Shown: positions 1 through 46,900 of the stretch, piece by piece
Position numbering within the stretch: position 1 is the first letter of the stretch
Layout of the letters: the number at the start of each line of letters is the position of its first letter
From: Alentia gelatinosa
Lineage: Eukaryota; Annelida; Polychaeta; Phyllodocida; Polynoidae
DNA length: 64,000 nucleotides
Assembly (NCBI GenBank): GCA_950022655.1
Contig: OX465587.1
Span: 34,723,716 to 34,787,715, forward strand
Reading direction: 5' to 3'
Made by a program: the position numbers and the translations under genes
Notes under the pieces: generated by a model
Database searches by the model: none
Told to the model about the DNA's origin: nothing
The model's input: the letters and a program-made list of their open reading frames with translations, nothing else

Positions 1-735
1 AGTTCTGAATAACTACTAGTTTTGTATAATACTATTGTTGATGGCTCGGATAATATCCTCCGTAAACTTAACATTTGTGTCCACCGTCGAGTGGCCAGGT
101 CTAAACCCGCCCGGTTCAGCAGTAAGTAGATTGTTAACCTCACAGTGTTCCATAAGTCGACGCTGTACAATTTTTTCTAGGAGTTTGCCTGGAGCAGGTA
201 ACAACGATATTGGGCAAAGATTAGATACTTGGTCGCTATTCCCTTCTTTCTTAAGTGGTACAATAAGGGCTTCCTTCCACTTAGACGGGAAGACGCCAGA
301 CGTCAGAGATAGTCGGAACAGTTTCAGTACTTTCGGTAAAACAGCCAGCAATGCTACCTTCAAAAATCTACTTGAGATTGCGGGTAAGCCCGAGGACTTC
401 CAAATATCAATTTTTTTTATCAAGTACATGAGTTCTTCCTCATCAGTATCTACATCGGTAACAAATTGATCCGAAATTGCTTCGTCATAAGCCCACGTAT
501 CATTAATTTTTTCGGCTAACTTGGGGCCAATCTCGGAAAAATAGGTGTTAATGTAGTCGGCCGTGAGGTGATTCGGTATTTTGTTACCGCTGGTGTTGTC
601 CACCAGATCAATGTGTGTGTTATCCTTTTTATTAGGTAGTAGTTTGTTGATTTCAAACCAAAATTGTATTGCATCTGATTTGTGATTGAGAAGGTTTTCT
701 TTAATATGATCTGATTTTGCGTTGATTATAGTTTT
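1..735 (-). CDS. LINE ORF2, reverse transcriptase part (partial)
   Basis: Continuation of ORF2 after the endonuclease. The translated region contains the endonuclease-RT linker and the first RT blocks: PISLLP, GKLLEKIV, RRL and GFRPGHST, the usual fingers motifs of non-LTR RTs. The catalytic YxDD block is not reached, because the frame runs off the left window edge. It is one frame away from the endonuclease ORF; the shift lies near the T-run at about 729-736, so a homopolymer indel is the likely cause. The product would nick the target and prime reverse transcription of the element RNA. Confidence 0.85.
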
Positions 736-1795
736 TTTTGGTGTAGTTAAGTAAGTATTTTGCTCTATCCCAGTCCTCAGGATTACCTGTTCTATGAGCT
801 CTACAGAGGGCACTATCCTTATCCTTTATGAGCTCAATGAGCTCGTTTGTAAGCCAAGGCTGTTTATCTTCTCTAACACGGAATTTTTTTGTCGGGCACA
901 TTTTATCTAGGTTTCTTATAAAGATGGTGTACATCAATTCCCAAGCTTTATCAACTTCAGTCTCCAGATCAAATTCTTGCCAATTATCGGCATCAACAAG
1001 CTGAGCATATAATGTTCCATCAAAATTTCTAGCTGATCTGCCATAGAAATCCTTTTTTTTAATTTTCTTTTTGTGTTTACCAAAAATTATATATGTTAAG
1101 CTATGATCACTCATGTTCTTTTTCTCCACCCCACAAGCTTTGAGGTCAGTTAAGTCAGTAACAACAAGGTCTATGCATGAAGAGGTGAGTTTCGTGACTC
1201 TTGTATACTCAGTAATTTGTTGTGAATACCCGTTTAATTTGACCCAGGTTTTGAGGTTGACTGTATCTTGGTGCTTAGTGTCAAGCCAGTTTATGTTAAA
1301 ATCACCAATATAGATAACTTTCTTAGTGCGCAGTTCTGGCCCATTAACGTCTATGAAATTCTGTAGTGTGTCCAGAAAAATATCTACATTACCATCTGGT
1401 GGTTTATAAACTGCTACATAAATAACATCTTTCTGATTCACTCTACTCAGGTGTAAAAATTGAGCTTCCATGTGTTTCGTTGAAATGTCAAACAAGCCAT
1501 TTTTAAATTTGGTCAGTTTCATGTCAGATCTAAAATAAGTACATATACCTCCCCCTATTTTTGGGAAATCACCATCATCCTCTGACCATGCTCTATCAAC
1601 TCTAAAATGACTATAGCCTTTCATAGCAATTAACTGGTCCGAGACAAGTTCGGTCAACCAACTTTCAGTGAAAGTCATTATATCAAAGAACTCAGCACAT
1701 TCGATTCTCACCATTTCGATTTTCCCAAGTAGACTCCAGATATTCAGATGTCCCACCCTCAACCCCTTCACGTGCACAATTTCCTCCATCGTCAT
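736..1795 (-). CDS. LINE ORF2, AP-endonuclease domain
   Basis: Starts at the methionine at 1795. The protein shows the exonuclease-endonuclease-phosphatase pattern: an HLNIWSLLGK start block, FTESWL, a YKPP block, IGDFNINW (metal-binding Asp/Asn block) and SDHSLTYIIF (catalytic SDH near the end). This is the nuclease that nicks genomic DNA for target-primed reverse transcription. The open frame continues to 701 but has already left the correct frame: the RT linker resumes in the neighbouring frame at about 736. The domain appears intact; only the frameshift afterwards would stop ORF2 translation. Confidence 0.85.
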
Positions 1796-2369
1796 TCAGT
1801 ACAATAATCATTGCAAAATTTGTCGGAACCTCTGGTATAGTAAAAGGTGTCAACCCTAGTTGGGTTGAACGTAAATAGGGAAATTATGCAATCTATGCAT
1901 TCCCTTGGGTTACTCATTATTCAGACACTTCAGATGGCGGTGAGCGAGTTCGAGTGACGCTCTCCCGCATGATTCAAAACATAGATCAAATTAATTAAAC
2001 TTAGTTAGGGTTCAGATATGTAAAGACGAGTTGGCCAAGAACTGCTTAATCAACAAACAAAAAAAGAACTTTTTTGTTCCATAGTCTCTCAGCTTTTCCC
2101 AGCCGGCGGGCTATCGAGATTGGTCGTCGACCCATCCTGAGTCGCCTCAAAACGTGCCAATTTGTTGTCAACACATTGGAAGGTATTTGTTGCCGACTGG
2201 GGCGTCCCTCGAGACGTGAAAAAAAAAAAAAGAATTTCTCCTTCTAAGATCAATTTTCAAATTTAGTTAGAGTTTAAATTTAGTTTAAATCACATTTTAA
2301 AATTGGGCAGGAAGGCCGTAGAGTCATATGACATGTACATACTCATGAACATTAGTTACAAATAGCAAA
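1796..2369 (-). other. LINE inter-ORF spacer
   Basis: About 570 bases between the end of ORF1 and the start of ORF2 with no sustained reading frame and several homopolymer runs, including a long A-run near 2220. I see no domain here. It may be real inter-ORF sequence or decayed coding sequence. Confidence 0.5.
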
Positions 2370-3028
2370 TCAGTGAGTACTAGCAAGTGCATTTACGTCA
2401 AAACACCGTAACGGCTCGGCGTACCAAAATTGAGCGAGATCGTCGGCCAAATGGATACCGTCATAAAGGTTGTCATACTTGTGACACACACTGAGTGATT
2501 CGTTGCTGTGATTATGTTTGGCCAGCCAGGGGGTTGACAGTCCTCTTAGTGAGTTCCACCCAGTGACAGCCTTGTTGAATGCCACCACTGCTTCATTTAC
2601 CATAACTTGTTGACTGTCAGTTGTGCCTGGCGCTACTTTAGCTAAGTTCAAACCAACCAGTGGGCACATTATGATTTTGGCATTGGGATGAATATGCTCT
2701 AACCAGTCTAAACCCACCTCTGCATATGCAATGAGTGAGTTTGCAAGGGCCTCAGCAGAATCCCAGTTAAATGAAACCTACGACCAACCTTATTTGTGAT
2801 GTCATTCACCCCTGCAATAATGTAAACATTGTCAGCTGGGTGGTGTAGCAGGTGGTAGTGTGCATTGACAATAACTTGTCTCAAACGTGATCCGCAGAAG
2901 AAGTACACGCTTGCGCGTCGACTCCTTGCCGGTTCTGTTGACATTAGGTTATCCAATTTAGCTCCTCGACTATCCATAAACATGGTATTTCGGGGTGCAG
3001 GTCTCCAATTTGGCCGATTTCGCTTCAT
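2370..3028 (-). CDS. SGNH/GDSL-hydrolase domain at the C-terminus of LINE ORF1
   Basis: Two overlapping frames together give one SGNH-hydrolase-like domain. The first half (3028 to about 2765) has MDSRGAKL at the position of the nucleophile block and VYIIAGVNDIT, the GxND block. After a frameshift near 2760-2770 the second half (to 2370) has PNAKIIMCPL and YDGIHL, the Asp-x-x-His block. The domain is in the same frame as the preceding NADAR region and separated from it by one TGA at 3053-3055. Esterase-like ORF1 domains are known in CR1-type LINEs; the combination with NADAR is what is odd. The substrate is unknown. Activity of this copy is unlikely given the frameshift. Confidence 0.75.
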
Positions 3029-3052
3029 TACGATAGATTTGTTGATCTTGAC

Positions 3053-4414
3053 TCAGTCTTCGTCGTCGCCGCGGTAGCTGTCACGGATTTCCGCCAAAAT
3101 GCGGCCAGCGTGGTTGTTGCCCGTAACGGACCGGGCGGAGATCGTGCGGGATTCCGAAATAAGTTTTCCACATCCCCAGAATTTGTCCTTGGTGGCTTCA
3201 TAGATAGGCCCTTGTATACGTTCTAACTTCTCGGGGAGGCTGTCATTTTGGTCAAATTTAGCCGTCATCAGTCTTTTCATGACATCACATTTACTGTTAT
3301 CCCAGGCCTTGCTAACTTGAACAGATTTGGCCAACCTTTTGGCTTCGTACCCGTCAGTGGAGATTCAAATTCTTTTCGCAACTTCGTACGCACCGTTGAA
3401 CCTAGCCAGAATAAAGCAGTAAAGCTGTTCGCAGCTGTCCCAGACCGTGTCTTCGTGTTTAATTTTGCACTGGTACATGTTCGACAGGAACGAGTAGTGC
3501 AATTGGAATGCCGTACCGTCAGGTGTACGGACCGTCTTCGCAGCTTCCATGGTTACTCCTTCTGGTAGTTTATTTAGATCTTCATGTTGAAATTGTTCGT
3601 CATCAACCACCAGTTTGGCCCCCTTAACTTTGGCGTTGTGGCCTAGATTTCTGGCCACAGCGGCCAAGCAGCGCAGCTCCTTCCTTTCACTTAGTTTGGC
3701 TGGCGACAGGTCGTCCGATACGAATACATTTTGCCACTTATCCATTCCTTTCAGTTTAGCAATGTTCTTATAGAGTTTACTCTTGGCGTGTGCAGTGCTG
3801 AACTTAACAAGAATGTTTCGCGGCCTGATATTCCCATGTCTTTTCGGCCCTAGTCTGAACGCGTATTCAATTGAGACTTCGTCGGTGATATCGATAGCCC
3901 CAATATCGGCAAACAGCTCAGCCGCAATATTTTTTACGTTTTTATTGGGCTTTTCTACCACTCCCTGCAGGATGACGTTTTTCCTCCTTTTTTCTTCCGT
4001 CAACTGGTTATTTTGTGCTTCAAGTGTTTCAACGCGTAGTGTAAGCCTGTCGATGGTGATTTCATTCAAATCCCGCTCCCGGTCCATTTCGGATACTAGC
4101 GCACTATACTCGTCCACTTGTTGTTCTGCTATCTTCAGTCTATCTTCTAGGCTATCTAATCTTTCATTCACGCCCTTCGCAACCTTGTCTACCTTCTCAT
4201 CCTGGGTGTCTAGATGATTATTTATGCTGTCCAGCTTTGTTCCAAGTGCGGTGAGTTCATCTTTGTTTGATTTCTTGAGCTCTCTTAACATGTCAATCAC
4301 TGTGCTCTGAGAATCATCCTCTCCATTATCGCTCTCACTGGCAGATTCCTTTTCCGACTTTTTTACTGACCGTGTTTTCGGTTTGCCGACAGGCATTTCG
4401 GCGGGCTTTGACAT
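3053..4414 (-). CDS. LINE ORF1: coiled coil, RRM-like domain and NADAR domain
   Basis: Starts at the methionine at 4414. Residues about 35-145 form a heptad-rich coiled coil (ERLDSLEDRL, QVDEYSALV). About 146-255 is an L1-ORF1-type RRM-like region with NVILQGV, GNIRPRNILVKF and a basic C-terminal half, expected to trimerise and bind element RNA. From about residue 298 a NADAR (YbiA-like) domain begins: FLSNMY, then a CEQLY block. It is interrupted by TGA at 3365-3367 and continues in the same frame with KFDQND, FWGCGK and GNNHAGRIL..IR, all NADAR signature positions. It ends at TGA 3053-3055 just before the SGNH domain. NADAR proteins are known to remove ADP-ribose from guanine; a role in the retrotransposon is inference. 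Confidence 0.8.
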
Positions 4415-5273
4415 CAGGCGGATTCTTGGTGGGTTGTTGTACGTACGAATATATGTCGTTGTCTTGTTAGGCTACAGAATCCCTTTTTTTATGATTTATA
4501 CGGGAGCTACGGCACACGCTCACTCACTCAGCCATTATGTAATTATGGTATTGTCTATGGGTAAAAAATACCAGGGGTGACATAACTAGGTGTACATTCT
4601 CCCTCGCAGATGTGCAAATCTAGCTGTCAAACCTCCTTACTGAAGTGTGTACCATGCTATTGACACTCCCTCACCTCCCTCCCTACCTCGCTGTCCATCC
4701 TATTGTACAGTCTCTCACTTCTCACAGTCACTCAATCTACACAGCCACCAAATGAACCATATCAGCAGGCCAGGTCAGGGAGGCCATCATCACAGTAATC
4801 AATGTAAACCACACAAGGCCTGCTGAGCCTGTACAACCTTGAGGAGACTGGAGCTGGTGGAGCAGTCAGTCCACACGCTGTCCCCACTGTATATATAGAT
4901 GGCTGCCCAGCAGGCTGGTAGTGATCACAGTCCTCCTGGTATTTGGCTGGATGTGTGGGATAGATTTTTTCTGCTACAGGCATAACCCTCTGGTAGCTGT
5001 GACCTTTGACCCGACAAGTATGGAAGTATTCCAATGAATTACCAATATCCCAAATTCCAAGGTCTTTCATTTATGGTTATGAACTACCCGTAGTTAATGG
5101 TATTGATGTTAGGGGGCGCCACATGAGGTTTCAGCTGGGGTTGCTGCAGGCACCCAAACCCACCTGGCTCGGTCACTCTGCAGCCACCAGGCCCCCAGGA
5201 AGGACCTAGCCTACGTGCTGAAAAGTTTTTTACTTGTTTGTCATTTCCCTAGGGAGAAAGTAATAAGATGTCA
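4415..5273. other. Non-coding stretch, no recognisable feature
   Basis: Contains the presumed 5' untranslated end of the LINE (to about 4480-4590) and then unassigned sequence. No ORF with family motifs is visible on either strand. Confidence 0.4.
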
Positions 5274-6241: not shown

Positions 6242-6582
6242 CCCTTTAAGGACGGCCGCCTATGGCAGAACTACACACATGGGGACGGCAACTAGTGACT
6301 ATGTACAGTTCTAGGGGACGGGGACAATTTTCTCTGAACTCAAAATTCGAAGGTTTATCACATGATCTAATTTGTTATCCTTCATATTTCTATTTCCATT
6401 ATTTAGAATTCTAAAATATGAAGTTATACCTACATTCTTTGCAAATTTCAAGTTAATTGATAAAATATTTCCTTTTCAAAAGCAAAAATACATAATTTCA
6501 TAAATACCCAGCAAATGATGCCTTAAGGCATCATCCGCCCCCAGCCGGGTGATGCCTTAAGGCATCATCCGCCCTTAAAGGG
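6242..6582. mobile_element. piggyBac-type MITE
   Basis: Flanked by TTAA on both sides (6238-6241 and 6583-6586), with 14-base terminal inverted repeats CCCTTTAAGG(A/G)CGG that differ at one position. Length is 341 bases and there is no ORF. The right end has two copies of the perfect palindrome GATGCCTTAAGGCATC (6517-6532 and 6551-6566). The same palindrome core is found in the large piggyBac element at 18.9 kb, so the two probably share a transposase. Confidence 0.88.
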
Positions 6583-13505: not shown

Positions 13506-13928
13506 TCAGCAGTTTTCAATAAGCCTTTTTGGTTTGCATGAAACTCTTGTAGACTGTCTCTGTTTTACAGGTGTCGGGGCCTGTAATTTGACAGTCTCTG
13601 GAGTATTCTCTGGGGGTGTTTCAGGAATGGGCTCAGTCACTGAAGCATCAGGGACAGGTTCTGGTTCCCAGAGAATATCTTGAGATTTCATATCAGGTAT
13701 AGGCATTGCAGGTGCAGGCTGCAGATGGCGACGGTTCCTGCGTTTCACACCAGAAGGTGTCTGCACGATGTACAATCGTGGCGTGTCAGCTGCTGTTTTC
13801 ACGGTACCATGCTGTGACCAACCCTTTTCATTGTCCGTCTTGATGGTGACCTTCTGGCCTATTGGCAAGGGTGGTAATGCTTTCACACCATGGTGATCAT
13901 CATAGTTCTTGGCATAAGCTGCTTTCAC
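13506..13928 (-). CDS. Gypsy integrase C-terminal region and tail
   Basis: Continues the integrase in a neighbouring frame: KNYDDHHG, then LPIGQKVTIKTDNEKGW, the small beta-barrel (GPY/F-like) DNA-binding region, then a proline-rich tail ending near the polypurine tract. The frame differs by one from the main pol ORF, which stops at 13925. The shift occurs within the overlap around 13925-13935, so it is a one-base indel or an assembly error. Confidence 0.8.
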   Translation of the reverse strand: MKAAYAKNYDDHHGVKALPPLPIGQKVTIKTDNEKGWSQHGTVKTAADTPRLYIVQTPSGVKRRNRRHLQPAPAMPIPDMKSQDILWEPEPVPDASVTEPIPETPPENTPETVKLQAPTPVKQRQSTRVSCKPKRLIENC

Positions 13929-16087
13929 AGCTTGACGGTCTCTCGTTCAGGCCATCTTGGTTCTAGTGTTGATGGCAATACTGGAAGAATTGTCCTGAGA
14001 TTGCGTCCCATCATCAACTGGGATGGACTACACCCAGTTGCAGCAATTGGTGTATCACGGTACGTGAGCAGAGCTAACCATGGATCTGGCTGGTCCAACA
14101 GGTACTTTGCTGTCTGAACAGCATGTTCAGCTTCCCCATTGGCATACGGCAGGTGGGGACTAACAGTGACATGGCTGAAGTTGTACTGTTCGGCAAAGTC
14201 CTTAAAAGTTGAGGCAACAAACTGAGGACCATTGTCGCTGACCACTTCTTTTGGAATCCCAAATCGAGCAAAACAGTCCTTGACACGACTGACGACTGCT
14301 CGGCTAGTGGTTGAACCCAGGCTAAGAACTTCGATCCACCGAGAGTAGTAATCAACAATGACTATGAAGTCCTTGCCTTTAAACTGACATAAGTCCATGG
14401 CAACTCGTTGCCAGGGTCCCTGTGGAAGTGGAGTAGTCATGAGAGGCTCACGCCTCTGAGTTGGTCTCCTTTCATTGCATTGTTGGCAGTTGGCAATGAT
14501 GCGCTTGATGTCCGCAGTTTGGCCAGGCCACCATACACCTAACCAGGCTCTCTCAAGGCACTTAGTAATGCCCTGATGTCCTTCGTGGATACGTTCCAGG
14601 ATCTCTGCCCTCATAGACTCAGGCACTACAATCCTGCTGCAGTAAACCAACAGTCCATCAACAACGGATAGGAGGCTTCGGTGGGAGTATAAACTCTTGA
14701 GGTTGTCAGGTACATCCTTGATGTATCTAGGCCATCCTGTCAGGGTGTACATGGCAGCAGCCCTCAGGACTGGATCCTCTTGGGTGGCTCGCTTTAAGTC
14801 ACATTTCTTCTCTGAAGAGGCAGGAAAGGTGCTCTCGACGGCTTGTACATGCAGGTCAACATCAGCTGCAGTTGTACTTGTATCATGACTGACTGGACTG
14901 CGGGACAAAGCATCAGACACATACATTTCCTTCCCTGGTACATGTTTAGCGGTGGCGTTGTATCTCATAAGTCTCATGAGACGACGTTGGCATCGGAGTG
15001 GGACATTGTCCAAGTCCTTATCATTGATAAGGGGAACTAGTGGCTTGTGATTGGTAAATATACGGAAGCTTTCCAAGCCACACAGATAACGGTCGAACTT
15101 CTCACAAGCCCAGACGCTTGCAAGGCACTCCTTTTCAATTTGAGCGTATCGCTGTTCGGCTGATGTCAATGTCCTTGAATAGTAAGCGATAGGCCTCATC
15201 TGTTGATTCTGTTCCTGTAGAAGGACACCTCCCAGTCCATATGAACTAGCGTCAGCACTCACAAATGTCGGCTTGGTGACATCATAGTAGGCTAGTATTG
15301 GCGTTGATGAGATGCGAGTCTTTATCTCTTCGAAGGCCTGCTGTTGGGGCTTATCCCAACACCATACGCTGTCTGACTTCAGCAGATCATTTAGTGGTCT
15401 TGTGATCACATGAAGCTCAGGAACATATGACCCAAGGTAGTGAACCATGCCTAATATCTGTCGAAGTTGGGTAACAGATGTTGGAGCGGGCATGTTCTGA
15501 ATAGCGGCGACCTTGTCATTGTCTGCGGAAATACCATCTTTGGAGATATGATGTCCGAGAAACTTCAGTTCCGTCTGTCGGAATGAACATTTCTCCTTGT
15601 TGAGTTTCAAACCCATATGCTTCAGTCTGTCCAAGACTGATGCAAGTCTATCGTCATGTTCTTTAGCATCCTTCCCATACACCAAGATGTCGTCCATGTA
15701 GACGAAGATACCAGGAAGACTGTCCAGTACTTCAAGCATCTTCCTCATGAAGATCTCGGGTGCTGAGGAAATACCAAATGGCAGGCGACTGAAGCAGTAT
15801 CTGCCAAAGGGTGTGATGAAAGTTGTCAGTTCTTGACTTTCGTCATCAAGTGGAATCTGGTAGAAACCACTGGCAGCATCCAGGGATGAGAACATTGTTG
15901 CTCCTGCGAGTCTTGACGTCAGGTCATCTAAGGTCGGTAGGACGAATCTCTCGCGTCTGACATTTGCGTTCAACTTTTTAAGGTCCACACACAACCTGAC
16001 TTTTCCCGTCTTCTTCAGGATTGGCACCATCGGGGCACACCACGGGGTTGGCTTTAGTGATTTCCCGAATGACACCGGACTTGACAA
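13925..16087 (-). CDS. Gypsy pol: reverse transcriptase, RNase H, integrase
   Basis: 720-codon open frame. The order is: RT with LDAASGFYQIPL, RLPFGISSAPEIF and the catalytic FVYMDDILVYG near residue 130; RNase H with FVSADASSYGLGG and later the HKPLVPL and VSDALSR blocks; integrase with an H-H-C-C zinc region (HEGHQGITK ... CQQCNERR), then VDYYSRWIEV and FGIPKEVVSDNGPQF carrying core Asp residues. The enzyme copies element RNA into DNA and inserts it. The first RT residues are in the adjacent frame (15978-16250), so the true pol start lies upstream. Catalytic blocks look intact. Confidence 0.93.
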   Translation of the reverse strand: MSSPVSFGKSLKPTPWCAPMVPILKKTGKVRLCVDLKKLNANVRRERFVLPTLDDLTSRLAGATMFSSLDAASGFYQIPLDDESQELTTFITPFGRYCFSRLPFGISSAPEIFMRKMLEVLDSLPGIFVYMDDILVYGKDAKEHDDRLASVLDRLKHMGLKLNKEKCSFRQTELKFLGHHISKDGISADNDKVAAIQNMPAPTSVTQLRQILGMVHYLGSYVPELHVITRPLNDLLKSDSVWCWDKPQQQAFEEIKTRISSTPILAYYDVTKPTFVSADASSYGLGGVLLQEQNQQMRPIAYYSRTLTSAEQRYAQIEKECLASVWACEKFDRYLCGLESFRIFTNHKPLVPLINDKDLDNVPLRCQRRLMRLMRYNATAKHVPGKEMYVSDALSRSPVSHDTSTTAADVDLHVQAVESTFPASSEKKCDLKRATQEDPVLRAAAMYTLTGWPRYIKDVPDNLKSLYSHRSLLSVVDGLLVYCSRIVVPESMRAEILERIHEGHQGITKCLERAWLGVWWPGQTADIKRIIANCQQCNERRPTQRREPLMTTPLPQGPWQRVAMDLCQFKGKDFIVIVDYYSRWIEVLSLGSTTSRAVVSRVKDCFARFGIPKEVVSDNGPQFVASTFKDFAEQYNFSHVTVSPHLPYANGEAEHAVQTAKYLLDQPDPWLALLTYRDTPIAATGCSPSQLMMGRNLRTILPVLPSTLEPRWPERETVKL

Positions 16088-16300
16088 GACGATCGAGCTC
16101 CTCCTTAACCTTGCCCATCAGAGGAAATGGTATCCTATGAGCGACAGTAAGTGTGACCGGTTCGGCACCCTCATGAAGCAGAATCTTGACTGGATCTGTC
16201 TTCAGTCGACCGATGCTTTCAACCGAGTCAATGTGCGTGATGAGTCCCATCCGCGTAGCAACTCCACGACCGAGGAGACACTCGACATCATTTTCGATGA
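15978..16300 (-). CDS. Gypsy protease end and RT N-terminal region
   Basis: Bridges the gag-protease ORF and the main pol ORF in a third frame. It reads through the protease C-terminal GRG block near 16260 and then ILLHEGAEPV, VAHRIPFPL and VKEELDRLVKSGVI, the usual lead-in to Gypsy RT. One indel at about 16300 separates it from the protease start, another at about 16030 from the RT core. Confidence 0.8.
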
Positions 16301-17425
16301 CTAGGGTACGAAAATTGTATTTGTACCCTTGAACTTGGTTGTGGCGATGTACTGCCCTTTACAGTCTAACGGACCACCTGGACTGGACAGATTTGTAGTG
16401 ACATCCTTCAGCTTGGGCCTTGGCTTCAGGCGCAGATAATCAGTGTAAGACATAACCGACACATCTGCCCCAGAGTCAATCATGAAGGTAACCCAATTAT
16501 AACCAACTATGTCTAGGGTGACTTTCCACGCTGGGTCGCTGTCGTCACAAGTGACAGCACCGAAAAATAGTTCACGACTACACACACTTGCTGTCTCGTT
16601 GACTTCCTGTACTTTGCTTCTACAGACTGAGGCAAAGTGTCCGACTCTCTTGCAATTTTGACAAGTTTTACCGATGGCAGGACATGCGTCTTTGTTTGAT
16701 GATCTATGGATGTATCCACACTGACCACATTTAGGCTTTGAGCCTGACTGTTTTGAAGCTTGACCTTGACTTGAATTTTCATGGCGTTTATATGACTGCT
16801 TGCCCGACTTGTGGTGGTGTCTACCTTGACTAGCATCCTTCTTGACGAAGCTAACATCTGCGGCTGGCGTGTTTTGACTTTTCACCAACTCTGAGTGGAG
16901 TGCTCGAGTGACTGCGGTGGTGAGTGACAGGTCGTCTTGTTCCAGTTGAAGCTTTTCTGACATTTCTCGGTCCAGTATACCGCTGATGAGTCGGTCACGG
17001 ATGTGTTCATCCTGTTTCTCACCAAAGTCACAGTATGCCGACATCTCACGTAGATTTCGCACAAACACTTCTGTTGACTCACCAGCCTGCTGGGTACGCT
17101 GGTAGAATTTTGTGCGTTCATGAATTGTGTTTCGCTTAGGCACAAAATATGCATCAAATTTCTTAATAACAGTGTTATAGTCCTCTTTCGGGTCTACAGG
17201 GTTTGGCACATCTTGCGTAGCAGCTGGTCTAGCATCAAACTGGAAGGACTTAAAAATGTTCCCAGCTTCAGGACCCATGCAATAAATCAAAGAGTCAACC
17301 TGGAGGTCCCCATCTTCTTTGTCTATTTTCTCTATTTTTCCAAACCTCTCATATCTATGTTTCCACTCAGGCCAGGCTGTTGGCTTGTCAAATGTAAATG
17401 ACTTTGGTGTTTCGTATTTAGGCAT
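16301..17425 (-). CDS. Gypsy gag with zinc knuckles, fused to aspartic protease
   Basis: Starts at the methionine at 17425, 230 bases inside the 5' LTR. Capsid-like region with WPEWKHRYERF near residue 20 and a helical core to about residue 190, then a basic Ser/Lys/Gln-rich stretch. Two zinc-binding modules follow: CGQCGYIHRSSNKDAC and CQNCKRVGHFASVC (a canonical CCHC knuckle). The protease active site FMIDSGADVSVM is near residue 320. The frame ends at 16301 by a frameshift inside the protease. Gag would package element RNA and the protease would process the polyprotein. Gag and protease in one frame is common in Mag-like Gypsy elements. Confidence 0.9.
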   Translation of the reverse strand: MPKYETPKSFTFDKPTAWPEWKHRYERFGKIEKIDKEDGDLQVDSLIYCMGPEAGNIFKSFQFDARPAATQDVPNPVDPKEDYNTVIKKFDAYFVPKRNTIHERTKFYQRTQQAGESTEVFVRNLREMSAYCDFGEKQDEHIRDRLISGILDREMSEKLQLEQDDLSLTTAVTRALHSELVKSQNTPAADVSFVKKDASQGRHHHKSGKQSYKRHENSSQGQASKQSGSKPKCGQCGYIHRSSNKDACPAIGKTCQNCKRVGHFASVCRSKVQEVNETASVCSRELFFGAVTCDDSDPAWKVTLDIVGYNWVTFMIDSGADVSVMSYTDYLRLKPRPKLKDVTTNLSSPGGPLDCKGQYIATTKFKGTNTIFVP

Positions 17426-18942: not shown

Positions 18943-19131
18943 TTTACGGCAGGAGGATGCCTTAAGGCATTACCGCTGAACGGCAGGAGGATGCCTTAAG
19001 GCATTACCGCTGAACGGCAGGAGGATGCCTTAAGGCATTACCGCTGAACGGCAGGAGGATGCCTTAAGGCATCTTTTTTTTTTTTTTTTTCAAATTCCTT
19101 TTTTTCATAGATTTAAGCACGAAAGGGTTAA
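18943..19131 (+). repeat. Subterminal palindrome array of piggyBac element
   Basis: A 34-base unit is repeated four times from about 18946; each unit contains GGATGCCTTAAGGCAT, a palindrome centred on TTAA. It is followed by a long T-run and GAAAGGGTTAA (19121-19131), which looks like a second piggyBac end. This segment could therefore be a 189-base MITE of the same family sitting at the element edge, or simply the element's subterminal region. Confidence 0.75.
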
Positions 19132-20051: not shown

Positions 20052-20615
20052 TTGACAACCCTGAGGTTAATGGACGGTTTGGGGGAGGAATTTGACCAGG
20101 ACCTGCTAGAATCGGACGGTGCGAACTCGACGGATAGCGAGGAGGACAACGAACGCTTAGCTAGACGTGTGCCGCAACACACAACAGGAGGAAGAAAATG
20201 GGTGTACTTTCCTAAGTCACATGCCATGCCTACACGTCACGTAGATCACCTCAAAGCCCCAGGACTAGACGAGTCCATCGATGGTAGCAAGTTGAAGACG
20301 GTTCTGGATTACTTTCGTCTTTTTTTCACTCTTTCGTTCCTGACAAAGCTATGTAATCACACCAACAACTACGCGAGTGCGGCGTCACGGACAGGACAAC
20401 CAAAAAAAATGTCGGCCTGGGTCCCGGTCGTTCCTCTGAAGTTCATAGCAGTGACGTTTCTTATGGGATTAATACGAAAACCGAACATCGACCATTACTG
20501 GACGACAATCCAGGAGTACTCCACGGCAGGCATAAAAGATTTGATGACAAGAACCGCCGATACTGTATGTAGTGCTATGAAATTCGCTCAGTATTTCAGG
20601 AGAGGCCTTATCTAA
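20052..20615 (+). pseudogene. piggyBac transposase, N-terminal half
   Basis: Frame starts with an acidic Asp/Ser/Glu-rich segment (EEFDQDLLESDGANSTDSEEDNE) written here only to show composition in part, then the transposase dimerisation region: DYFRLFFTLSFLTKLCNHTN, then KFIAVTFLMGLIRKP and the YWTTIQEYS block. These are the conserved features before the catalytic core of piggyBac-derived proteins. The frame stops at 20613, and the next conserved part is in another frame at 20720, so the copy is broken. Confidence 0.85.
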
Positions 20616-20719
20616 ATTCGTTGAAAGTATCGTAAACATTCATTAATTTTTTCTGCCGCTATCTCCACTTTGGTGGACGCCAGACGCCCGACCAACCAGG
20701 AGACGCCGCTGCCGCCTCC

Positions 20720-21457
20720 GTGAACCCTGACCCCCAGAACGACCTCGACCCGCAAGCCCCGCCCCCAACTCGCAGATCACCTTTTCCGATGATTTCTTTC
20801 GTTTTTGACCACATGAATTCTGTTTGTAAATCTGTGTATCACCCGAGGAAGGAGTTAAGTGTTGACGAAACAATCGTTAAGCACAAAGGCAGAACTCGCC
20901 ACCGTCAGTACATGCCGAACAAACCCTGCAAGTGGGGACTAAAATGCTGGGTGCTGGCGGAGGCGGTGTCTGGCTTTGTGCTTCAGCTTAACCCCTTCTT
21001 CGGGCGAGATGAGGCTGGGGGGAAAACGACCACACAGGCTGTCGTTATTGATCTTTTAACTGGGGCGAATTTGACTTATGTCGGACATCATGTTTATTTT
21101 TATACAGGAGTTCAACTGATGGAGAAGTTATTTGAGTTGAAAACATATGCTTGTGGCACTCTGCGGTCGAACCGCACCGAGTTACCAAAAGATCTAATGA
21201 CTTGTACCCACCCAAGTTTGAAAAAGAAAGGCGATTGTTTTTTCTCCAAGTGTGGGAATCTTCTGTTGGCGTTATGGCTCGATAGGAAAATAATTCGCAT
21301 TCTAACTACGATACATTCATCTCTTATGACCACCACAAAACGAACCATTCGCGACGATAAAGGCAAATTTAGTAAGTCAGACATTCCCTGCCCCGAACTG
21401 GTTCGTTCGTATTGTAAATACATGGGAGGTGGCGATAAATCGGGTGGAGGCGGATAG
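20720..21457 (+). pseudogene. piggyBac transposase, catalytic core (degenerate)
   Basis: Catalytic-domain blocks in order: LSVDETIVKHKGR (first Asp present), MPNKPCKWGLKCWVLAE, a region where piggyBac proteins normally carry the second catalytic Asp (DNFYTS type) but this copy reads HHVYFYTGVQL, and LALWLDRK (third Asp present). With the second Asp lost and frameshifts on both sides, this transposase should be inactive. The end of the frame is low-complexity GGGDKSGGGG. The protein normally cuts and pastes DNA at TTAA. Confidence 0.88.
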
Positions 21458-34400: not shown

Positions 34401-34874
34401 TCATTGGGATGCCTGCATCTTGGTACTGAGCTCGTGCTCTGACTGGGAATGGACTTTGGCATTTGGGTTGTCTTTAGACATTTGGTGATTCTCTTTGAAA
34501 ATCAAGTTGTAGGCTGGGTTTCTTGGGTTGGCCCTAACTCTCATAGAGTATTGTACAGACCGTCCCTCCCATCGCAGATGGATTGGGGGGATTCCTGCTT
34601 CAACATACAGGCTTTGGGCAGGTGTTGTTCGATATGGTCCTAAGCACAGTTGTATACCTTGGTTCTGGACAGGTTTTAACCTGTCCACGTACGATTTTGC
34701 TGCTGATTCATACACAACTGATCCATAGTCCAATCGTGATTGGATGTACATCTTGTACAGAGTCAGCAGTGTTTCACTGTTAGTTCCCCAGTCAGGGTGA
34801 CTGAGGACCTTCAGAAGGTTCATGGCTTTCTGACACTTTCTCCTCAGGTACTCAACATGTGGTTTGAAAGACAA
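34401..34874 (-). pseudogene. LINE ORF2 thumb/connection region
   Basis: Frame with KPHVEYLRRKCQKAMNLLKV, then LYKMYIQSRLDYGSVVY and the VQNQGIQLCLG block, the standard region between RT palm and RNase H in I-group and jockey-group LINEs. Confidence 0.75.
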
Positions 34875-34953
34875 TATGTCTGAGGAATTTGACTTCCTCT
34901 TGGACTGTCAGTTCCTTGTTCTGGAGACTGAGGGAAGGTTTGTCCACGCATCC

Positions 34954-35637
34954 TCATCTTCGACAGAAGTGAACTGCACATGTCTTTGTCTCGTAGAACT
35001 TGAAACCATTTTTGTCACTCCAAACATGAAGTTTGTCTAGAGTTTGTTGCAGTTTTCTTTCTGGCGTGTGCATGAATCTGCCCTTGTAGCAGATGACAAA
35101 GTCATCTACATAGAGGCAGCAGTTGACATTCTTCTTCAGTTGTTTCACGATGTCATTGATTTTAATGCCAAACAGGGTGACAAAGAGGACACAGCCTTGG
35201 GGCACACCCATTTCTTGGTCAACTCTCTGGGAGATTGCACTTCTGAGGCGAACATTGAATGTTCTGTTGCTCAAGAATCTTTCAATGAACCGTGTCAGTC
35301 TTCCTCTCAAACCCATTTGCTGCATGTCACTGAGGATGCCATGTTTCCAGGTGGTGTCATATGCCTTCTCCAGATCAAAGAAGACTGCCACGACATGTTC
35401 TTTGTTGGTAAAACCCTCACAGATCCAGCTTTCCAGATGGACTAAAGGATCAGTGGTGCTGCATCCTTTACGGAAACCTGACTGACAGGGAGTCAACAAG
35501 TCATTGGACTCAAAGTACCACACCAGTCTGTTGTTCACCAGTCTTTCCATGGTCTTTGCCATACAGCTGGTCATAGCTATTGGCCTGTAGCTCGAGGCGA
35601 TGCTGTGATCCTTCCCTGGTTTGGGGACTGGTATCAC
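34954..35637 (-). pseudogene. LINE reverse transcriptase
   Basis: 227-codon frame with IPVPKPGKDHS, SSYRPIAMTSCMAKTMERLV, QSGFRKGCSTTD, FFDLEKAYDTTW (first catalytic Asp), MGVPQGCVLFVTLFGI and CLYVDDFVICY (catalytic Asp pair). RT core itself is uninterrupted; frameshifts occur on both sides. Confidence 0.88.
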
Positions 35638-36810
35638 AGTAGCCTCAGACCAGGATGGTGGATAGTTGCCAGTTGTTCAAATGTTGTTGAACACCTCAAG
35701 GAGCAGGTTGAGAGCATCATCTGGAAGATGTTCTAACATTTGATAATGTATGTCATCAGGTCCAGGGCAGGAGTCCCTTGCCTGGGAAAGGGCATGTCTC
35801 AACTCCTCCATGGTGAAAAGCCTATTATAGGTTTCCCTGTTATTGGAGGTAAAGTCAAGCCTCCCTCCCTTTGTGCTCTAGAAAGGTGTTTGAGCAGTTA
35901 TTTGATGATGAGACATTGCTGAAGTGGTTTGCAAGGGCATTTGAAATGTCCTTGTTCTCTTCTAATATCTCTCCACCACTCTTGAGATGGTGAACAGTAG
36001 ATGAGGTGCCTCCGTTTAGTTTCTTCAACTCCTTCCACACTTTCCGCATTGGAGTTGTACTGGTGAGGGAGTTAACATATTTATGGAAGGACTCTTGTCT
36101 TTATGCCTTGTATATTTGGACTGTTTTTGCACAGGTTTGAAGGTATTCATGCATGTTCTCGCCTGTGATGTCATTGTTGAACCGGCGGAGAGCTCTCCGG
36201 CATTCTCTCCTGGCTTCACAGCATTTGTCATTAAACCAGGGAGGGGGTCTCTGCTTTTTTTCCTTGGGAGGTTTTCCCATACACATACTATTTACTTCCC
36301 TGAGGGTTTCTGTAAAGTACTGTGTGACCATGAACGGAAGGAGGTGTCACACAGGCCTTGGAACTGTTCCCAGTCAGCCTTATGTATCTTCCATCTTGGT
36401 GGTCTTTCCGTATTGTTGCCTCTTTTTTCTGTTTCCAAGATTATTGGAAAGTGATCACTGCCACATAGGTCATGGTACACTCTCCATTCATAATCTTGGA
36501 AGATTGTGGGATCAGTCAGTGTCAGGCCGATCGAGGAGAATGTGCCAGATGCAGGGTGATGATAAGATGGTGTTTTGTCATTGAAAAGACACAAGGATTT
36601 GCAGTCAATGACTCTCTCCCTTGAAGTCACCCATCAGGATGTATGGGGGTGGAAGTTGTTCTATCACAGGGGTGTTAATTTTGACACGGGCTGCAACAGC
36701 TTGAAGCTCTGTATTCAAAAAGATTTCACGCTGTGGATGCTGGGGTTTAATGAACATGGCCACTCCACCAGCAGGGAATAGGCCATCAGGGATTTTAGAG
36801 ACTTGAGCCA
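35638..36810 (-). pseudogene. LINE endonuclease end and EN-RT linker
   Basis: Several frames: 36811-36605 with GGVAMFIKP and ILMGDFKGE (GDFN-type metal block), 36630-36292 with SIGLTLTDPTIF and GSDHFPIILE (SDH-type block), then 36331-36101 with PWFNDKC..ARRECRRAL, and 36049-35855 with MRKVWKELKKLNG. The N-terminal half of the endonuclease is missing. Confidence 0.75.
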
Positions 36811-40820: not shown

Positions 40821-40994
40821 CTAGTTGAGGGTGCCTCGACAGTTGGGGGCTCCGCACAGACACACGATCTTCTCGTCCTCGATGGGGAACTTGTAGTCGT
40901 ACGTTATCTCATCGTTCACGTTGATGTCCCGCTTTGAGTAGATGACGATTTTCCGTCTCGATTCCACCGAGATGATCTTGGCATAGCAGTTGGG
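40821..40994 (-). CDS. SETD1: SETD1 exon 16: SET end and post-SET
   Basis: 58 codons including the stop. [20 protein letters not shown], then [14 protein letters not shown] with the catalytic-site Tyr residues, and the post-SET zinc motif [13 protein letters not shown] at the end, as in SETD1 of other animals. The acceptor is AG before CCCAACTGC. Confidence 0.96.
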
Positions 40995-43900
40995 CTGTAA
41001 CAAGAATGGAGGGTGTTAGTTCATCAGCACAGACCCAATTCTTACAGTTAGGCTGTATCAAGAATGGAGGGTGTTAGTTCAACAGCATAGACTCAATTCT
41101 TACAGTTGGGCTGTATCAAGAATGGAGGGTGTTAGTTCATCAGCACAAACTCAATTCTTACAGTTAGGCTGTATCAGGAATGGAGGGTGTTAGTTCATCA
41201 GCACAGACTCAATTCTTACAGTTAGGCTGTATCAAGAATGGAGGGTGTTAGTTCATCAGCACAGACACAATTCTTACAGTTGGGCTGTATCAAGAATGGA
41301 GAGTGTTAGTTCATCAGCACAGACTCGATTTTTACAGTTGTGCTGTATCAAGAATGGAGAGTGTTAGTTCTCGACTCAAATGGAGGGTGTTAGTTCATCA
41401 GCACAGACTCAATTCTTACAGTTGGGCTGTATCAAGAATGGAGGGTGTTAGTTCATCAGCACAGACTCCATCCTTACAATTGGGATTTAACAAGAAAGAA
41501 TTAATCGGCACAGACTCAATTCTTACAGTATCAAGAATGAAGGGTGTTGGTTCATTAGTAGAAACTGAACAAGAGTTAGTAGTGTGAGTGTTTATCCCAC
41601 GACTGGCAGATTGTATTACAGCGCGAGGTAATAGCCGAGTGCAGTGAGTAGTCGACCTGACCAGAGCGCAATAAACACTCCCAGTGCTAACTTGAGTTCA
41701 GTTTAGCATTTATCCTACCCCATCTCCAAGATTTTAAAATAATAATTAGCCATTTTAGTTACAAGTTGCTAAAGCGAGTGAAGTTTGCGGCTGCCGATTT
41801 GCCAAGTAAGGCCAAAGATCGTCAACAATTCATAGACCATACAAGTGTGACGTCACTCACGTACTGGCCAATGATTGGTCTTTTTTTCTATTACACTGCA
41901 ATAAATAACACCTTACTGTAGGATCGCTGGAATACAGTGACCCAATGTTAAGCCTATGGCGTTCTTTGTTAGGGGTAAGATAATCAGTATAGACTCAATT
42001 CTTACAGTTGGGCTGTGAAAAGAATAAAGGGTGCCACCACACTTAATATCGCAGTTTTATATAATTTCTATGATCAATGTGAATCCTCATATCCCTATTC
42101 AATAAGACGAGAGAAAGCTGCTGGACTCACATTACAGCTGTGGTTGATGAAGCGCGCCAGGTTGCCACACTTGGTGGCGTCGATGACGTTCTCGCCGTCC
42201 ACTCTGAACAGGTAAGAGCTGCCGATGCCCACCGCCTCATAATTCTTCTCGCGGTTGTTGGCGATGGAGTGGCGGATGACCTGACCCACGTACTCGATCA
42301 CCATCTCCTCCGCCGCGATGGGCTCCAGCGCGAACAGACCCCAGTCGTGAATGCCCGACTTGGCGAACTTCAAGTGCTTCCTTCGGAACTGTGCAACAAT
42401 AACATGTTTAATCAGGAGAAGTTTTATTTCTTGTTAACATGTTTAACTACAGATCTTAAAAGTGTTTTAGATTTTTTATTTTTTTTTTTTTTTTTGTGTT
42501 GGTGGTTTTTAGGGTTAATTTACATGTTTAACTTCAAATTTTTTATTTTTTTTTATTTCGCAAACATACAATCTGTTATTGCAAGTTTTCATTGTAGTAC
42601 TACGGAGATACATGAGAATCTCCACATGTTTGCATCTAGCTGCAAGGCTGGAAAGAAAATGTGTTTTAGTTGCGGTTTTTTTGTTGTGGTGGTTTTTAGG
42701 GTTAATTTACAAACAAGGCTATCATACATGAAGTTGTTGACTCTGTTGCTACGATTATTATATGGACTTGGAAACTATATGAACAAAACAGATGTTATCT
42801 ATTTTTTTATCTGGATTGTGATTGGCTGATCTGGGTCACATGTTACAATACTATAAAAGGGTGACAGTTCCGAACTGCCACCCACTTTCACATTCATACC
42901 TACCATGTCTTTAATCGTAATCTCCAACAAGTTTGATACCTACCAGGTAGCAGTTCTCAGACTGCAGTGGTTTGTAGCACTGTTTTTTAATTACATCCTA
43001 CCTACAGTATCTTAAATAAGGTATTTTGATTGGGAAGTCTGGGCAGTTCACTGGTATTTAAGACTAGATGCAGAGTCAAGGTGAGCTTTAAGTGAGAGGG
43101 ACTGACCTTGAGCTGGTTGAACTTGAGCAGGTCGCTGACCTCCTCGCCTCGTGAACTGAGCACATTCTGGATGCGCCGCGTCTCGGAGCGCGCCTCTCTC
43201 GTCTGCTGCGCCTTCTTCTTCACCTGCTCGTTAGCGTCCTGCACCACAAACACAACAATGTCAGATTGTACGAGAGAGAATGGTAGTACATCCTTATTAC
43301 AGGGATTCCTGCACCACAGACACAACAATGTCAGATTGTACGAGAGAGAATGGTAGTACATCCTTATTACAGGGATTCCTGCACCACAGACACAACAATG
43401 TCAGATTGTACGAGAGAGAATGGTAGTACATCCTTATTACAGGGATTCCTGCACCACAGACACAACAATGTCAGATTGTACGAGAGAGAATGGTAGTACA
43501 TCCTTATTACAGGGATTCCTGCACCACAGACACAACAATGTCAGATTGTACGAGAGAGAATGGTAGTACATCCTTATTACAGAGATTCCTGCACCACAGA
43601 CACAACAATGTCAGATTGTACGAGAGAGAATGGTAGTACATCCTTATTACAGGGATTCCTGCACCACAGACACAACAATGTCAGATTGTACGAGAGAGAA
43701 TGGTAGTACATTCTTATTACAGGGATTCCTGCACCACAGACACAACAATGTCAGATTGTACGAGAGAGAATGGTAGTGCATTCTTATTACAGGGATTCCT
43801 GCACCACAGACACAACAATGTCAGATTGTATGAGAGAGAATGGTAGTACATCCTTATCACAGGGATTCCTGTACCACAACACAACAATGTACAGTGTCAG

Positions 43901-46900
43901 ATTACACTAGAGAGCTTGGAAGTAAATCTTTATCACAGGGATCTCAGTTGGAGTCAGGGGAAAAAGTGGAAATATTTTCATGTTGATTTTTCCGCCTCAG
44001 AAAGATCGGGAAAACTTGGATAATATGTCCCTGTCAATGTAAATGGAATGGGGCTGAGGGTCTGTGGGGAGGTTCAAACCACTGTTTTATTGGCGTAAAT
44101 GAGGCTAACTCAATATCATCTTTCTTTGAAACAAGGAAAAGTAATTAACTAAACTGAATATGAAAAAGTGGATTTCCACGGAAAAATAGAAGACTGATAT
44201 CTCTGTTTATTATAGGGATGTCAGTTGGGGGTCAGAAATATTTTTCATGTGGAATTTGTTGCCTCAGAGATGAAGAAAACATGTCGGTATTGACTCTGGC
44301 ATGGGTTGATGGTCTGTGATGAGAGGATCAAACCACTGTTTTATTGGCTTGATTGAGGCTCAATTCATATGACATTGTTTCACACAATGAAAAAGATTTT
44401 TGTAGAGTAAAAATAGAAAAGTGGATTTCCATAGAAACTGGAAAGCTGGCATCTCTTATGTTGAAAATTGTTTATCCTCCTACTGAAGATTAGTTGTATA
44501 ACGTGTATGTATTAGTTGCGATGAGTAGTTTGTTTGATTTTACGGCTAGTCAACTATTACAGGTCCTTCCAGACTTTCTCAAGGTTCAGCTTTTCTCACG
44601 GTTTTTACATGACTAGAGTGCTGATCAAATCTATGAGATGAATTTTGGTAGAAATCTCACCCCTACACATTAACCAAGGTGAGTTCTTTCACTTCCCACA
44701 CCACACAGACATGGTATGAGAAGGACTGGCATGCAATATAGCAGTAAATCTACTACTATTGGAGATGAAGGAGAAAAGTGTTTGTAGTTGGACTTGAACC
44801 CCAAAATCCCACAGCGATGTGCTGGAGCTGCATGCACTCACCAGCTGTCTTTGGTCTCCTTCAAGCTGACTCTCCGTCACTTGTACGCTGTGCTCGAGGT
44901 ACCTCAGTTTCTCTGCATGCGTGATTTTGTAGAAGCCTTCCGTGCGACTGCAGCCTGTTATGACAAGAATCACACAGACATTGAAAAAAATAATCCACAG
45001 CATCCAGGGATCTTTCATGTAGGGTTTACTATTGGGGTTATGTATAAAGTGTATGCTCGTCAAATCAATCATTAACTCTAAGTGGTACCTTTGGCTATAA
45101 GACGTAGCAAAACCCAAATTGGGAACTTCTTTCTTTTAGTTCGTTATAAATATCATCAAAGAAAGGAGGGGTTGCACTCCAGTACTAATGGTACTGACCA
45201 TCTTACTACAGGTTCCAGTGATATCTTTCTGTTAAAGTTAAAATTTTTTTGTTAATTCTAAACATTTTATATAAATCTCGGTGTTGAAAAGACACCCTAC
45301 ATCTGAACATACTGACGATACGAGTTATATCGAAAACTACTGACACTTTGGAGGTGACCGAGACCGACGTGGACCATACCCAAGCAGCTAATTGGCAATA
45401 TTTTTCTTGATTATTTACTCGTTTCTTTTTTTACATATATATACCTCATATAGTTACAAGTCATAATTGTCAAGTAAGTTATTCTTCATTGCTAAAACTG
45501 TCAATCATCCTTCTTAAACGATATAGGTACTAAGACTAAATGTAATGAGGCAAATAGCAGATTATATATTTGAGGCCCCAAATAAGATCTATGAATATAA
45601 ATCCTTCCCTTGTAAAGGGATCGTTTCACATATTACCAAAATAAGTTCTTTGTACTTTCCTACGAAAAAAGTACACATACAAGTCAATTATTGTACAATT
45701 CCTTAACAACAGTGATAAGAGCGAAACGCTACCTGTTTTGTGTTTCCTAAAGGGCTCCTCTGCCACACTGTGCTTGCGTTTTTTCTTTGGTGGGGATGGG
45801 TCTGGTATAAGTGTCAGTGGGTGGTCCACCCAGTGGATGTCGTTCAGCCAGTAGGACGATGGACTGTCGTCCTGCAACAATTCATCGTAGCGCCGCTTCA
45901 ACAGCGCGATGTCCTCCTCATCGATGCCCCGGATCAGGAAGTCGTACATGACCTGCATCTCCGCCTGCAGCGACCGAGGCTTCAGCTGTGGTTTGGGTTT
46001 CGGGGGAGGCGACACCTCCTCCTTTTTGATAATCTCACTGGTCAAGTTCGTCACATCTATCAACTTCTTCTCCTTCTGTTTCCTCTTCTCCTTCTTCTTT
46101 TTGGGCTTCTCTTCTTTGATTTTGATCTCGGGCAGCTCGATCTCGATGTCGTGGATGATGTTCTCGTCTCGCGGAGGAGTGACATGTGGCTCGATGTCAG
46201 CGACTGATGGGAGCTCCACCTCTGGATCTGGCAGTTTCTCGTTGTGTCGGATTCTTTTCGAAACAGATGGGTCCTGTGGGTGGTAACCCACACAGTAGTT
46301 ATGGTCTATTTGGATCTCCCGAGGCAGGGTGGCGATAAGATCCTGTTCCCCTTCAGAAGCCGAATCTGTGACATCCGAGTCATAAGGCACCATGTTGTCT
46401 GCTGGTGGCTTATCGGAGGGCTTGCCGAAGTAGTTATGGTCACTGAGCACTTCAGGCTCGGCTTTGATTTCTGTAGGTTCTGGTGATGCAAATTCTACAT
46501 TGGGGACAGTGACTGAGCGTGAAGGTTCATGCATCTGTAACAGTGCGAGAACAGCATCCTGTTCGAGACCAGAGTCGAGCTGGTGTGGCACCACCTCCTC
46601 CTCACCGACAGGTGATGCGAGAGGTGGTCTTTGGATCAGATCCTTCAGCACAGTATGCGACTCCGATGAAGATGGATGTCGCTCTCGGGGCTCCGGTGGA
46701 CGGTGATGGAGTTCCATGAGCATGTCGAAGGCGCCTCGCTCCTTATCAGTCAATGTATCTATACTTGTTGTACGCTCACCATCTTTACGTAAAGCTGTAT
46801 CCTCCTCTTCTTCAGCCTTTTCTTGTTCCTCTTCCTCCTTGTCTTCCTCCTCCTCCTTTTCTGGTGCAGTTTCGACTTGAGGAACACTGGCAGGTTTCTC

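Follow-up and report, generated by a model that had tools for sequence, protein, structure and literature searches.

The window (the whole 64,000-nucleotide stretch of Alentia gelatinosa DNA that was analysed) contains a dead copy of a LINE with three open reading frames: an ORF1 of the L1 type that ends in a NADAR domain, a separate ORF for an SGNH hydrolase just downstream, and an ORF2 with endonuclease and reverse transcriptase parts (Table 1). A sequence-only reading of the same DNA had described one ORF1 combining NADAR and SGNH domains. The NADAR domain does lie in an RRM-type ORF1 and the SGNH hydrolase is genuine, but the latter is encoded on its own.

Table 1. Features of the LINE copy in the window.
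Feature	Positions	Strand	Remarks
LINE copy	32..4544	-	5' end near 4524-4544; truncated at about base 32
ORF1	3053..4414	-	453 codons plus TGA; ATG at 4414; one internal stop; open in sister L034
ORF1 coiled coil	3986..4312	-	residues 35-143; AlphaFold2 helix 35-143
ORF1 RRM, LINE-1 ORF1p type	3707..3985	-	residues 144-236
ORF1 CTD-like domain	3551..3706	-	residues 237-288; fold alignments to 2yko/2ykp reach about residue 294
NADAR domain	3059..3547	-	ORF1 residues 290-452
TGA within NADAR	3365-3367	-	lesion of the window copy; sister L034 and relatives P0001-P0010 open there
TGA closing NADAR, natural ORF1 stop	3053-3055	-	same TGA in L033 and L034; relatives' ORFs end about there
SGNH-hydrolase ORF, separate	2370..3028	-	ATG 3026-3028; frameshift near 2777-2800 in the window copy; open in L033 and L034
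ORF2 endonuclease part	704..1795	-	ORF2 start 1795; PF14529 2e-6, 28.1 bits vs cut-off 27.4
ORF2 N-terminal reverse transcriptase part	19..825	-	other frame; PF00078 0.0035, below cut-off, partial stretch

On the minus strand, a frame running from 4414 to 2370 carries the coiled coil, RRM, CTD, NADAR and SGNH motifs, with two TGA codons and a frameshift in it. The sequence-only reading had treated all three as interruptions of one long frame. In two sister copies of the element, L033 and L034, which are 93-94% identical to it, the SGNH ORF is open. The first TGA is a lesion of the window copy, the sister L034 being open at that codon; the second TGA is shared by both sisters and is the natural stop of ORF1. 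The ORF2 of the window copy has one frameshift besides that in the SGNH ORF. Near full-length sister matches extended from query position 57 or 77 to 4569, corresponding to window positions 4544 or 4524 to 32. The breakpoint at about base 32 (query 4569) is the exact end of 20 of the 51 matches, and the window alone among the 51 crosses it, into foreign sequence; the flanking locus L012 carries a different LINE ORF2 (38% identity to the L034 ORF2). The surrounding window DNA is rich in repeats.

With a coiled coil followed by an RRM and a CTD, the window ORF1 has the order of an L1-type (type II) ORF1. Its RRM and CTD matched human LINE-1 ORF1p in profile searches (2yko/2ykp, E=1.2e-5) and the predicted fold agrees; together with the helix predicted by AlphaFold2, these matches bear out the earlier description of a coiled coil and an RRM-like domain. 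When 13 other ORF1s were combined in a profile, it too found 2ykp (E=1.3e-4), ranked under coiled-coil matches to dynactin, and a protein search with ORF1 residues 1-349 returned no matches. The NADAR assignment is far beyond what chance would give. PF08719 matched residues 306-446 at E=5.8e-20, with 72.6 bits where the cut-off is 35.1, all nine members of alignment A1 matched NADAR at E<=0.1 (best 2.3e-23), and the predicted structure of the window domain has the NADAR fold and matches an ADP-ribose complex. The ORF stops just past the NADAR domain in eight of eight outside relatives (P0001-P0008), P0006 alone having a longer, unrelated tail; P0011, whose frame is broken within that domain, was not included in the tree. 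A scan of IMG/VR gave three short NADAR frames only (146-167 aa), and the BFVD structure listing contained mostly viral NADARs.

A NADAR search of the genome (1.234 Gb, 101 contigs) yielded 3136 first-look candidates, of which 150 were scored, all of them over the Pfam cut-off. From these 150 listed matches we picked 20 loci of ~10 kb by hand for open frames of 565-1040 aa, and intact ORFs are therefore over-represented among them. All but one of the fetched loci (19/20) are LINEs. The exception, L027, is probably a host gene: no ORF2 accompanies its 1034-aa open frame (L027:742-3846), which combines long repeats and an LRAT domain (1.2e-6) with a NADAR at the C terminus (3.5e-30). This locus was excluded from the active-site table and the trees. 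The best NADAR match among those scored (3e-50) is a stand-alone, host-like frame of 242 aa at L004:1402-2130.

Active-site residues were taken from the ADP-ribose contacts in 8bau and mapped with a profile alignment and PMC11543638, from which the numbering also comes. The distal-ribose glutamates E43 and E125 are Glu in the window and L034, and K50 is Leu in both, so that the window family lacks this lysine. In the 19 other LINE loci of the genome, E43, K50, E125 and W133 are each present in all 19 and D130 in 17. The outside relatives P0001-P0010 have lost K50 in all ten cases and W133 in nine of ten, the W133 and D130 columns adjoining gaps there. NADAR activity is probably kept in the relatives of the window family in the same genome, as judged from these residues. 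It has probably been lost or altered in the window family itself, since the counterpart of K50 in the E. coli C7 NADAR is described as essential for efficient hydrolysis of guanine-ADP-ribose (PMC11543638). With the catalytic lysine gone, the window-family domain probably has weak activity, works on a different substrate or serves for binding. The loss of K50 in both this family and P0001-P0010, with that of W133 in nine of the latter, argues that these elements do not in general need to hydrolyse guanine-ADP-ribose.

What the three proteins might do can be approached from better-characterized relatives. NADARs of several organisms take ADP-ribose off guanine (PMC11543638), and the esterase of the LINE ZfL2-1 is active, with an action involving lipids and membranes proposed for it (PMC3905857). 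In the mechanism that we propose, the product of ORF1 would be an RNA-binding protein that associates with itself, like that of L1, and ends in NADAR; the second, free-standing ORF would supply an SGNH esterase, and ORF2 the two enzymes of target-primed reverse transcription, an endonuclease and a reverse transcriptase. In the families with a full active site, the particle-bound NADAR would free the guanines of LINE RNA or cDNA from ADP-ribose, or remove other adducts of nucleobases there, which would shield the element's nucleic acid from host ADP-ribosylation, and the esterase would aid trafficking or act at membranes. L1-type ORF1p packages the RNA of its element; from this, the guanine activity of NADARs and the action of a LINE esterase at lipids, we infer that cleaning or protection of nucleic acid with esterase-aided trafficking is the most likely role, and we put the chances of the proposed mechanism at about even. 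The active site kept in the 19 loci (D130 in 17), the fold match to an ADP-ribose complex and the report that six edible clams ADP-ribosylate guanine in DNA (PMC11209040) would fit a role against ADP-ribosylation. A genome search with PF22596 (guanine ADP-ribosyltransferase) found none, and its control likewise went undetected.

Two other roles for the NADAR domain have to be weighed. It could serve RNA processing, which has been suggested for retrotransposon NADARs (PMC12477816), or act on soluble ADP-ribose derivatives, suggested along with RNA-processing by-products as substrates of viral NADARs (PMC9503650), and in neither case would it counter a host modification. However, its joining to an ORF1 of RNA-binding type favours a substrate bound in nucleic acid, and we regard this alternative as conceivable but rather unlikely. 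Alternatively, the domain could be a non-catalytic module that binds nucleotides or RNA, its conservation reflecting fold or binding. Its retention in the window family and P0001-P0010 despite the residues lost there is what such a module would predict, but the four residues retained in every one of the 19 other LINE loci are not, and we consider it doubtful that the module reading applies.

By itself the window SGNH region matched PF13472 weakly, at E=0.0085 (joined pieces), below the cut-off, and its pieces gave HMM matches of 127 bits (win_0) and 56.5 bits (win_1); against the PDB their best matches (E=0.076 and 0.26) were to an unrelated kinase, an SGNH protein appearing only at 1.1. The expected catalytic blocks are present as DSRG, GVND and DGIH, providing the block I Ser, the block III G-x-N and the block V D-x-x-H. 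When four intact SGNH ORFs were compared with Pfam, one passed a curated cut-off (L013, PF00657, 1.4e-5; PF13472 at 2.5e-7 was just under its own), and PF13472 gave 1.7e-4 for L030, 0.078 for L031 and nothing for L014. A profile of 12 SGNH ORFs found the ORF1p esterase of the LINE ZfL2-1 (4c1b) at E=2.1e-4, with two designed proteins ranked higher. D-S-R, the block III Gly and D-G-x-H are invariant in all 12, and the block III Asn nearly so (L025 is without it). The SGNH proteins of these LINEs are thus divergent in sequence, with the catalytic blocks retained.

An intact SGNH ORF of 211-242 aa lies between ORF1 and ORF2 in 15 of the 19 LINE loci; L019 and L026 have SGNH remnants, and no SGNH was found within the fetched ~10 kb of the L1-like loci L015 and L017. 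At the extremes, ORF1 and the SGNH ORF overlap by 4 nt in L016 and lie 600 nt apart in L032, measured from the ORF1 stop to the SGNH start. Each SGNH ORF was read from its own ATG. A single fused ORF1 is ruled out by the TGA in both sisters, the eight relatives whose ORFs end past NADAR and these separate SGNH ORFs; the predicted linkage of the two domains in intact copies is tight, but in none of the 15 intact loci do they form one ORF. Nor is this an esterase-type (type IV) ORF1, in which the esterase is a domain of ORF1. The SGNH ORF would presumably be translated independently. Translation as a C-terminal extension of ORF1 through stop-codon read-through would make the earlier fusion partly real, and the frame does continue across one TGA in the window and in L034, where ORF1 and SGNH are both open; the two share a frame in 8 of the 15 intact loci. 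They are in different frames in the other seven and in the sister L033, whose SGNH ORF is open, and L018, L020, L021 and L024 have 297-327 nt between ORF1 and an SGNH ORF with its own ATG, which makes read-through highly improbable. The spacer from the SGNH stop to the ORF2 start (L013-L032) is long (420-1720 nt) in all of the 15 loci but L031, for which the ORF taken as ORF2 is probably another one.

Linkage was also evident from the SGNH side. A genome search with one SGNH protein gave 2119 first-look candidates, of which 150 were scored. For 29 of these 150 listed matches (two of the 29 are pieces in one place), a NADAR match from the other list of 150 precedes at a distance of 162-572 nt on the same strand; among the same two sets, neither the reverse order nor opposite strands occurred. 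When the upstream 1.9 kb of 20 SGNH matches drawn at random from the 121 unpaired ones was fetched, 18 had a NADAR in sense, and the two without (L036 and L038) are partial SGNH matches starting at residue 74 or 77. Chance nesting of an SGNH or NADAR piece in a LINE, which a repeat-rich window and a copy truncated by foreign sequence might suggest, is refuted by these counts and by the constant order and strand in 15 of the 19 fetched LINEs, and we give it practically no credence.

The ORF2 of the window family combines endonuclease and reverse transcriptase in about 960 aa and is not of the L1 type. The reverse transcriptase of L034 scored 1.3e-38; the endonuclease part of the window had no PDB match at 0.1. 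By comparison, the L015 ORF2 aligned with human LINE-1 ORF2p over nearly its full length (8uw3, E=2.8e-101), pieces of L017, L019, L026 and L030 had L015 as their best match, and the L014 ORF2 had no L1 ORF2p match at E<=0.01. In the ORF2 tree, a branch with support 100/100 separates L034, 14 fetched loci and the neighbouring LINE from the L1-like L015, L026 and L030. The earlier CR1/L2-like classification agrees with this tree as to the non-L1 type, and by its motifs the clade is probably CR1/L2-like (Jockey superfamily).

Approximately unbiased (AU) tests on the NADAR tree rejected the grouping of the 16 group-A NADAR rows by themselves as a clade (p 0.001). They did not reject group A together with P0001-P0010 (0.286), group A minus the window family (0.328), the NADARs of all LINEs as one clade (0.315), or the L1-like rows with the P relatives and the window family (0.248). 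The SGNH tree pairs L034 with the L1-like L030 (97/93), a pairing flagged as long branches meeting. We entertain only tentatively, as an unlikely extension, that NADAR and SGNH form a transferable counter-defence cassette common to the CR1/L2-like and L1-like superfamilies, with which the ORF1 particle would erase host guanine ADP-ribosylation from LINE RNA or cDNA, some lineages having lost catalysis after the host system changed.

Substitution rates support constraint on both NADAR and SGNH. In every one of the 12 pairs NADAR had a lower dN than the RRM region; compared with ORF2 its dN was lower in three of six, NADAR evolving faster than ORF2 in the other three. SGNH dN was below that of ORF2 in all five pairs and below that of the RRM region in seven of eight. 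All four dN/dS values could be obtained from one pair only, L018/L024 (NADAR 0.040, SGNH 0.041, ORF2 0.073, RRM region 0.111), with dS of 1.3-2.1, near saturation; most dS values were saturated, and NADAR dS was too high to compute in 9 of the 12 pairs. L018 and L020 share 99.7% identity across 7.26 kb, so that movement has been recent, provided that C71, the small contig carrying L018, is not a duplicate made in assembly. An SGNH match listed at 100% occurs at a third place, on C10.

A NADAR domain in a LINE ORF1 is already known, from the one mention that we found among open-licence PMC papers: several Tx1 LINEs of Crassostrea gigas carry NADAR within ORF1, as here, and RNA processing was suggested for it (PMC12477816). 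The window ORF2 is of another, CR1/L2-like type, a distinction drawn from the description of those elements rather than their sequences, and that description mentions no SGNH ORF. The L1-like loci L015, L017, L019, L026 and L030 may belong to the C. gigas Tx1 group. A Gypsy Pol of Ectocarpus is also listed as a retroelement protein with NADAR (PMC12477816), but the element is an LTR element and the domain lies in the N-terminal part of Pol. LINE-encoded SGNH hydrolases are likewise known from the esterase-type ORF1 of CR1/L2/RTEX LINEs such as ZfL2-1 (PMC3905857; 4c1b), where ORF1p contains the esterase as a domain along with a coiled coil; in the present element the esterase has an ORF of its own, next to an ORF1 with RRM and NADAR. 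Type II (L1-type) ORF1s of CR1/L2 lineages share the coiled coil, RRM and CTD, and the parts of PMC4120745 that report its survey of 448 Jockey-superfamily ORF1s record no NADAR. Bdelloid LTR and Penelope-like elements have a GDSL/SGNH accessory ORF3, but they are not LINEs, and NADAR is not among the ORF types described for them in the relevant part of PMC5408684. Neither NADAR in CR1/L2-like LINEs nor a LINE whose SGNH ORF stands alone turned up in our searches of open-licence PMC papers.

The element adds a three-ORF layout to the LINEs, with the esterase uncoupled from ORF1. We know of few biological roles for nucleic-acid ADP-ribosylation in animals. A large LINE population, recent at least in part, in which NADAR active sites are kept would point to host nucleic-acid ADP-ribosylation as a pressure on retrotransposons, and the full-site and K50-lost families of one genome provide natural pairs for testing such pressure.

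Elsewhere in the window, frames of 720 and 374 aa at 13925-17425 (-) have the look of Ty3/gypsy pol and gag-protease, and pieces at 20052-21457 (+) resemble what we take to be a piggyBac-type transposase. A second, different LINE reverse transcriptase fragment lies at 34401-35676 (-), with 35% identity to the window reverse transcriptase part over 91 residues. An exon-like frame at 45626-47077 (-) resembles what we take to be a SETD1-type histone methyltransferase, and 53470-55659 is a long low-complexity frame. Tandem arrays occupy 43237-43890 (70-nt unit), 40987-41370 (58), 49929-50221 (61) and 18946-19072 (34); the 34-nt unit contains the palindrome ATGCCTTAAGGCAT, which is present too near 6520-6565.
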